The notes under the pieces are model-generated. The model was not told the origin of the DNA, did no database searches, and was given only the letters and a program-made list of their open reading frames with translations. The translations under genes and the position numbers were made by a program. From Undaria pinnatifida (lineage: Eukaryota; Sar; Phaeophyceae; Laminariales; Alariaceae): 64,000 nucleotides of DNA. Of this stretch, positions 1,751 through 63,693 are shown piece after piece (position 1 is the first letter of the stretch; each line of letters starts with the position of its first letter). The stretch is taken from contig JABAKD010000029.1 in the NCBI GenBank assembly GCA_012845835.1, positions 8,253,380 through 8,317,379 on the forward strand, read 5' to 3'.

Positions 1751-2914
1751 ATGAAATCCCAAAAGAAGTTCGCCGGATATGGCGCCGTTGCAACCGACTT
1801 TGCCGGGGACGGACCACGCGCGCCTGGGGCTCGAGCGTCGTCTACCGCTGGCGACCCGGGCGTCGTCGAGTACGGAAGCAGCAGCAGCAACAACAGCCCT
1901 TGCGGGCGGGATCGCCTGTTGACCGAGGATTTTGCCTCGCATAGGCGGCCTACGAGGTATTGTTCTCCTCCTCCAGCTACTACTACTACTGCTGTTGCTG
2001 CTGGCGCGGGTGTTGGGTTATCGCCGTGGTGGCGAGTTGTCGTGGTGGCTGCGGCTGTCGCCACAGCTTTCTCGGCGACAGTCGGTGTCTTCTCGCAATT
2101 CTCGAGCTACGCGGGCACTGAGCAGTCGCTGGGCGGCGAGGGCAATATCTTCCCCAGCAAGCTGTCCAAGAAAGCTTCCGCTGTGCCTCAGAAGACAGTA
2201 TTAGTAGCAGCAGGAGAAGAAGAACGAGGAGGGGGGAAGGGCACGCTAAACGTAGCAGCCGCAACGGCGACAATGGCATCATCGGCAGCAGTAGCAGCAG
2301 TAGTACTAGTAGACGATGTCAACGGCGATAGCAACGCTGATTATGAAGGGCCTGCCAAGCCAGTAGCAGCATCATCAGCAGCAACAACAACGACAAACTT
2401 GAAAGAACAACCCCGCCTGTCTTCTGTTGTTCCGGCAGAAGCAGCCTCAGCAGGAGACGAAGAAGGCGACGCTGCTGTCGTTGCTGCCGCCGCCGCCATT
2501 GCTGCTGCTGCTGCAGTTGCCGCCACTGAGGGTCTAACCTTCACCGCGACCAACGCTTACAACCGGCGAGGCGACTCAATTGGCGTAGGCTACTGCTGGC
2601 TAAAGGGAGAGATACTCGTAGAGCCATTTCGAACGACTAGCCTTAAGGTAGAATCTCCGATCGAAGGCGCCACCTACTCGTGGACCGTCGTGGATAGCAC
2701 AAGCCTCAGAAGCATCACCCAAGGCGACTTGGAGGGAAGTACGGTGGACGTCTTGTTTGGCAGCGCCCCGCTATACACGGTGGTGCTGCTGGAAAAGCGC
2801 GTGGATGGTACCCTGTCGAGAAGCCTGGCCTTAGAGGTGTTCTGCAAGTATGTGCGGAGGGAGATCAGGTCGCTCTTCGACGACGAGCGAGACGAGATGT
2901 TCGACGCTATGAAG
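1751..2914 (+). CDS. Tyrosinase-like gene exon 1: N-terminal anchor, linker and beta-rich domain
   Basis: Encodes residues 1-388 and ends in codon phase 0 at a GTATGG donor. The start is the first Met of the open frame; the next in-frame Met (175) would lose the membrane helix. Residues 1-90 are Ser/Pro/Arg-rich. Residues 94-114 (after SPWW) form one hydrophobic helix, consistent with a type II signal anchor. Residues 120-260 are low-complexity Ala, Val, Thr and acidic sequence with a run of Ala at 245-255. Residues 261-365 alternate like a beta-sandwich ([11 protein letters not shown]). [10 protein letters not shown] at 366-375 leads into the copper domain and is typical of this family. The 3-prime half has coding-like composition. 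The linker's GCA/GCT-rich repeats look microsatellite-derived. Function of the beta domain is unknown. Confidence 0.88.

Positions 2915-63693: not shown

Follow-up and report, generated by a model that had tools for sequence, protein, structure and literature searches.

A predicted 11-exon tyrosinase-like gene of the brown alga Undaria pinnatifida with a 42.5-kb, probably repeat-inflated first intron

Long introns have been described for brown algae, particularly for kelps (PMC12116465, PMC11836290, PMC7291590). In the available portions of these and related papers, the average intron of Saccharina japonica is 1,816 bp (PMC11836290), the median intron of Ectocarpus autosomes is 524 bp (PMC12477816), and the longest introns in two S. 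japonica gene families measure about 15 and 13 kb (PMC7291590, PMC10506224). We analyzed a 64,000-nucleotide stretch of the Undaria pinnatifida genome (C36:8253380-8317379, here called the window; the genome sampled has 511,146,479 bases in 68 contigs) that carries eight exons of a tyrosinase-like gene, hereafter gene B. Like those of the kelps (Saccharina, Laminariales), its first intron is large and repeat-rich, and at 42,534 bp it is about three times as long as the longest kelp introns found in the accessible parts of published work (13 to 15 kb). An earlier note on this DNA, which had put the intron at about 42.5 kb, as measured here, called it, if real, extreme for an algal-type genome. 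A limited search of partly available literature turned up no intron of close to 42 kb in a brown alga, and examples may be concealed by length caps in annotation; the word "extreme" nevertheless needs a qualifier, because long kelp introns have been described and a neighboring sister gene (gene A) has a comparable first intron of 26,031 bp.

Gene B is very probably one intact gene of 11 exons and 909 codons that spans 66,312 bp from ATG to stop and encodes a probably membrane-anchored tyrosinase-like protein, with a spliceosomal first intron inflated by repeats (Table 1). The eight exons proposed within the window, which contains no undetermined bases (N), were concatenated by script, and the splice borders and reading frame were then read. 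The frame is open throughout, all seven introns are GT-AG, and exons 1 and 2 join in phase 0, as the earlier note had stated. The borders of intron 1 (ATGAAG/gtatggtg ... gattttcag/GTGCTC, with slashes marking splice junctions) and the frame kept across it are those of a spliceosomal (U2-type) intron.

The 3' end differs from that proposed earlier, in which the gene had eight exons, was confined to the window, and ended in a stop codon at 63691-63693. The ATGTAA at 63688-63693 contains the splice donor CTCAT/GTAACC, so that exon 8 ends at 63689 and the apparent stop results from reading through the donor. The flanking DNA past exon 8 reads on with FKRITGTMTDLSWPDEPG, for which the counterpart in the homolog P0002 is FKLLAGTFTDYSWPDEPG, and gene A has the donor GTAAGC at the matching position. 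Exons 9 to 11, taken from this flanking DNA, join in frame with exons 1 to 8 to give a single stop at the protein end and ten introns, all GT-AG; since these three exons lie outside the window, the gene does not fit in it. Exons 9 and 10 match orthologs, and exon 11, the least certain, was placed by frame, GT-AG borders, and weak similarity. Also seen in this region were a brief echo of the exon 8 end (TTCTGGTCGCTGCACCCC) within intron 8 at 63913-63930 and, directly downstream of the gene at 68172-68420 (L007:4672-4920), a decayed duplicate of exon 11 and the last part of exon 10, with 45% identity and stops.

That a single gene spans exons 1 and 2 across the 42.5-kb intron, as the earlier note proposed, is strongly supported, because homologs, a shared subfamily, the sister gene, the protein fold, and the constraint between genes A and B agree. 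In a homolog search, 8,000 candidates were scored and 121 homologs were found; 112 of the 120 listed cover residues 375 to 402 in a single alignment, as do all 11 of those derived from transcriptomes. Detailed alignments of 18 homologs show no gap in 17 and, in P0098, a deletion of 14 residues right after the joint. P0001 to P0005 pass through the joint without a gap, and residues 384 to 393 (FDAMK/VLWDV), five from each exon, are identical in P0001 to P0004, which are four of the five close relatives covering them; because half of this identity comes from each exon, the joint is beyond chance. The 40 top hits were also aligned separately to the exon 1 part (residues 261 to 388) and to exons 2 to 8, with short partial rows such as P0028 (17/25) and P0035 (20/33) omitted from the exon 1 comparison. 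The exon 1 part is 54 to 57% identical to P0001 to P0003 (128 aligned residues), 59% to P0004, and 50% to P0005 (82 aligned residues each), and at most 43% identical to the remaining hits for which 100 or more residues align. Exons 2 to 8 are 64 to 66% identical to P0001 to P0006, 62% to the partial P0010, and at most 45% to the rest, so both halves of the gene favor the same subfamily. In the AlphaFold model of P0003 (mean predicted local distance difference test score [pLDDT], 80.2), the joint (K258/V259) falls inside the helix formed by residues 247 to 262, and the match to solved tyrosinases runs from residue 235, encoded by exon 1, to about residue 704, encoded by exon 10. Homology extends across joints 1 to 9, with a one-residue gap at joint 7 in some relatives. 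Between genes A and B, the ratio of nonsynonymous to synonymous differences per site (pN/pS) is 0.35 for exon 1 and 0.39 for the later part, with values from 0.23 to 0.61 by exon.

The protein would consist, in order, of a signal anchor, an Ig/PKD-like domain, and a tyrosinase fold with six copper histidines. Exon 1 encodes a short N-terminal tail, a hydrophobic stretch that is a probable membrane anchor (residues 96 to 114), a low-complexity stem that includes another hydrophobic segment, rich in Ala (241 to 259), an Ig/PKD-like beta-sandwich (about 257 to 365), and roughly the first 22 residues of the tyrosinase fold, which was recognized in the P0003 model. The PF00264 profile matches residues 416 to 601 with 41.9 bits against a cutoff of 22.6 (E value, 1.9e-10). 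The PYWDFT motif and all six candidate copper histidines claimed previously are present (residues 416, 429, 438, 590, 594, and 726); across 47 homologs, three of these columns are invariant and three are at least 90% conserved, and from the alignment and general knowledge of the family we take them to be the copper ligands. The best named relatives, from Pylaiella, Ectocarpus, Scytosiphon, and Hapterophycus (P0001 to P0006), are 60 to 65% identical to gene B. The tyrosinases of Pylaiella littoralis (P0001), Ectocarpus siliculosus (P0004, named "tyrosinase"), and Scytosiphon promiscuus (P0005) have 60 to 63% identity over 90 to 99% of residues 258 to 734, with the same copper ligands and an unbroken sequence at the exon 1/exon 2 joint; the low-complexity stem of gene B is longer than that of P0001 to P0003. 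In contrast, the bacterial tyrosinases of Priestia (Bacillus) megaterium (8hpi and 4p6r) and Streptomyces (5z0f) are only 20 to 25% identical and lack the anchor, beta-sandwich, and insertions of the gene B protein. Judged from its sequence, the product is probably a membrane-anchored, tyrosinase-like type 3 copper protein; the enzyme would lie on the lumenal or outer side, and its substrates may be phenols or catechols, perhaps phlorotannins.

A genome search with P0001, in which 56 of 169 candidates were scored, located the sister gene A head-to-head with gene B; around 8.2 to 8.3 Mb, each strand carries a separate exon 1 and separate downstream exons. The gene A matches to exon 1 (C36:8232261-8232944) and exon 2 (C36:8206107-8206241) flank its 26,031-bp intron, which has the same codon and phase as intron 1 of gene B. 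Introns 3 to 9 of gene A lie at exon ends matching those of gene B, and its last exon was not found. C22 carries many tyrosinase paralog exons (L045 to L048 and other sites at 0.2 to 1.3 Mb). In the four paralogs L045 to L048, a phase 0 GT-AG intron of 5,987, 2,858, 4,854, or 6,876 bp lies at the codons DA/M or NA/M. Compared with the A/B site, it is displaced six nucleotides upstream, before rather than after the MK codons, which may reflect intron sliding or a separate intron. Since the site is common to genes A and B and nearly so in the C22 paralogs, the length of intron 1 appears to have been gained separately in different copies.

Intron 1 would be an ordinary spliceosomal intron at the site common to the sister gene, swollen by transposons and simple repeats. 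The earlier note described 42.5 kb of transposons between the exons; repeats and retroelement remains are indeed present, but those identified account for only part of the length. A second copy (at least 60 bp at 70% identity or more, within about 170 kb fetched from this genome, including intron 1 itself) exists for 16,356 of the 42,534 bp (38%), only 8,149 bp are copied outside intron 1, and repeats and tandem arrays together cover 17,921 bp, all of these totals being lower limits set by the small amount of genome fetched. The dispersed repeat at 12552-13000 has tens of genome matches with 91 to 100% identity among the 40 of 1,698 candidates that were scored, and the slice 3001-7000 contains a further very common repeat at about 6500-6750 (40 of 9,188 candidates scored). 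The decayed retroelement at 39496-41868 has an inverted copy at 20977-22788 with 75 to 76% identity. Dispersed repeats are the only sequence that the first introns of genes A and B have in common. Separately, positions 29837-29948 hold an interstitial ACCCTAACCCTAACCCTAA repeat that resembles a telomere and includes runs of G. Recursive splicing proceeds through ratchet points, which consist of a pyrimidine tract and YAG/GTRAG. Intron 1 gives no indication of it: a single site, at 42490, was found where 0.24 would be expected, a number equaled in 21 of 100 controls, and intron 1 of gene A contains none. The intron would have to be spliced out of a single pre-mRNA of about 66 kb, and transcription and splicing presumably proceed as drawn here.

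Table 1. Features of gene B and its surroundings (window coordinates unless given as C36; positions beyond 64000 are extended window coordinates, in which base 1 of L007 is window position 63501)
Feature	Position	Strand	Remarks
Exon 1	1751-2914	+	Ends ATGAAG/gtatgg, phase 0
Intron 1	2915-45448	+	42,534 bp, GT-AG; many dispersed and tandem repeats, retroelement remains
Exon 2	45449-45535	+	87 nt; copper site A (CuA) His416
Intron 2	45536-52481	+	6,946 bp
Exon 3	52482-52518	+	Microexon, 37 nt; CuA His429
Exon 4	54101-54318	+	CuA His438, PYWDFT
Exon 5	56651-56822	+	
Exon 6	57490-57623	+	Copper site B (CuB) His590, His594
Exon 7	62657-62851	+	
Exon 8	63496-63689	+	CuB His726; donor CTCAT/GTAACC at end
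Intron 8 start	63690-64000	+	Full intron 8, 746 bp
Exon 9	64436-64550	+	Outside window
Exon 10	65728-65959	+	Outside window
Exon 11	67881-68062	+	Outside window; TGA stop
Young dispersed repeat	12552-13000	.	Three related copies inside intron 1
Open reverse transcriptase frame, 632 aa	13657-15555	-	RVT_1, E 1.3e-37; opposite to host gene
Decayed retroelement	39496-41868	-	RVT_1 piece 41374-41868, E 4e-13
Sister gene A	~C36:8,198,883-8,232,944 (L040-L043)	-	Tyrosinase, head-to-head with B, ~22 kb upstream

Several observations weigh against a single intact gene. Its structure is predicted from genomic sequence, and the promoter side is only partly readable because 5,000 N (C36:8248380-8253379) adjoin the window directly upstream. 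Joint 10 and exon 11 are poorly conserved; eight of the 120 listed homologs (P0006, P0010, P0036, P0037, P0038, P0076, P0113, and P0118) do not span the exon 1/exon 2 joint; and the fold is that of the relative P0003, not of the gene B protein. In addition, the A-B pS is 0.79 (saturated) in exon 1 versus 0.57 in exons 2 to 10, which is unexplained, and pN/pS reaches its maximum of 0.61 in exon 7.

It is unlikely, though worth weighing, that the structure is real and gene B is losing function, being poorly spliced or silenced while gene A does the work. Gene B is less similar to the Ectocarpales orthologs than gene A is (61 to 63% versus 68 to 70% identity) and branches outside gene A plus the Ectocarpales, though not firmly; six of the eight shared introns are larger in gene B, and the decayed exon copy lies directly downstream. 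However, the 909 codons without a premature stop, the ten GT-AG introns, the six retained histidines, and the overall pN/pS of 0.35 to 0.39 speak for a maintained gene, and one study reports, in its available text, that expression in Ectocarpus is little affected by the load of transposons in introns (PMC12477816). Far less probable are two transcription units, in which exon 1 would encode a short N-terminal protein on its own and a promoter in intron 1 would drive the tyrosinase, starting in or just before exon 2. The 42.5 kb between the exons and the Hapterophycus model P0006, which starts at MWDV in exon 2, would fit this arrangement, but the P0006 contig is only 8.2 kb and its cut near the joint may therefore reflect assembly. 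Moreover, such a cut would break one predicted helix and deprive the tyrosinase fold of its beginning, the two parts occur together in all 11 transcript-derived homologs, and exon 1 terminates at a donor site and is constrained like the rest of the gene. Least probable is an assembly artifact in which foreign sequence was misjoined into a short true intron: repeat-rich and simple-repeat stretches such as those in intron 1 are typical misassembly sites and the introns of the four C22 paralogs are only 2.9 to 6.9 kb, so that not every family member has a long intron, but the window is free of N, both flanks are parts of one subfamily gene with their order and strand as they should be, and at this position the sister gene has an intron of 26.0 kb.

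Within the single gene favored here, intron 2 interrupts the CuA site at FHQ/IGASD. Exons 2 and 3 form one uninterrupted exon in gene A and in all four C22 paralogs read, and because intron 2 is absent from these five of five genes, the simplest account is that it was probably gained in gene B. The uninterrupted site in gene A reads CACCAGGTCGGC, a CAG/GT proto-splice site. The dispersed motif ACGCGTGCYACGATAGAG occurs 16 times in the window, where 0.02 occurrences would be expected; its copies (for example, at 45547, 53127, and 53755) lie in both orientations and may mark the ends of a small DNA transposon. The copy at 45547 starts 11 nt into intron 2, counted from the donor end. Introners are marked by element ends or target duplications that coincide with splice borders and by many like introns, according to the accessible part of one report (PMC9860276). 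No clear target duplication was seen by eye at the borders of intron 2, and an Introner origin is therefore not demonstrated. The chances are about even that the head-to-head pair records intron growth and birth, with separate growth after duplication to 26.0 and 42.5 kb and a new 6.9-kb intron in the CuA site of gene B.

The case is ordinary in kind, a large yet explicable example of repeat-inflated introns in this group. It suggests that one intron can reach 42.5 kb, and the gene of a modest enzyme 66 kb, where a brown algal genome is large. Intron length caps in annotation pipelines would split genes of this sort, in gene B within the first helix of its catalytic fold, and a stop codon adjoining GT close to a window edge should be read with caution, as it may be a donor site. 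Adjacent copies with and without the extra intron offer a test case for dating transposon-driven intron birth and inflation.
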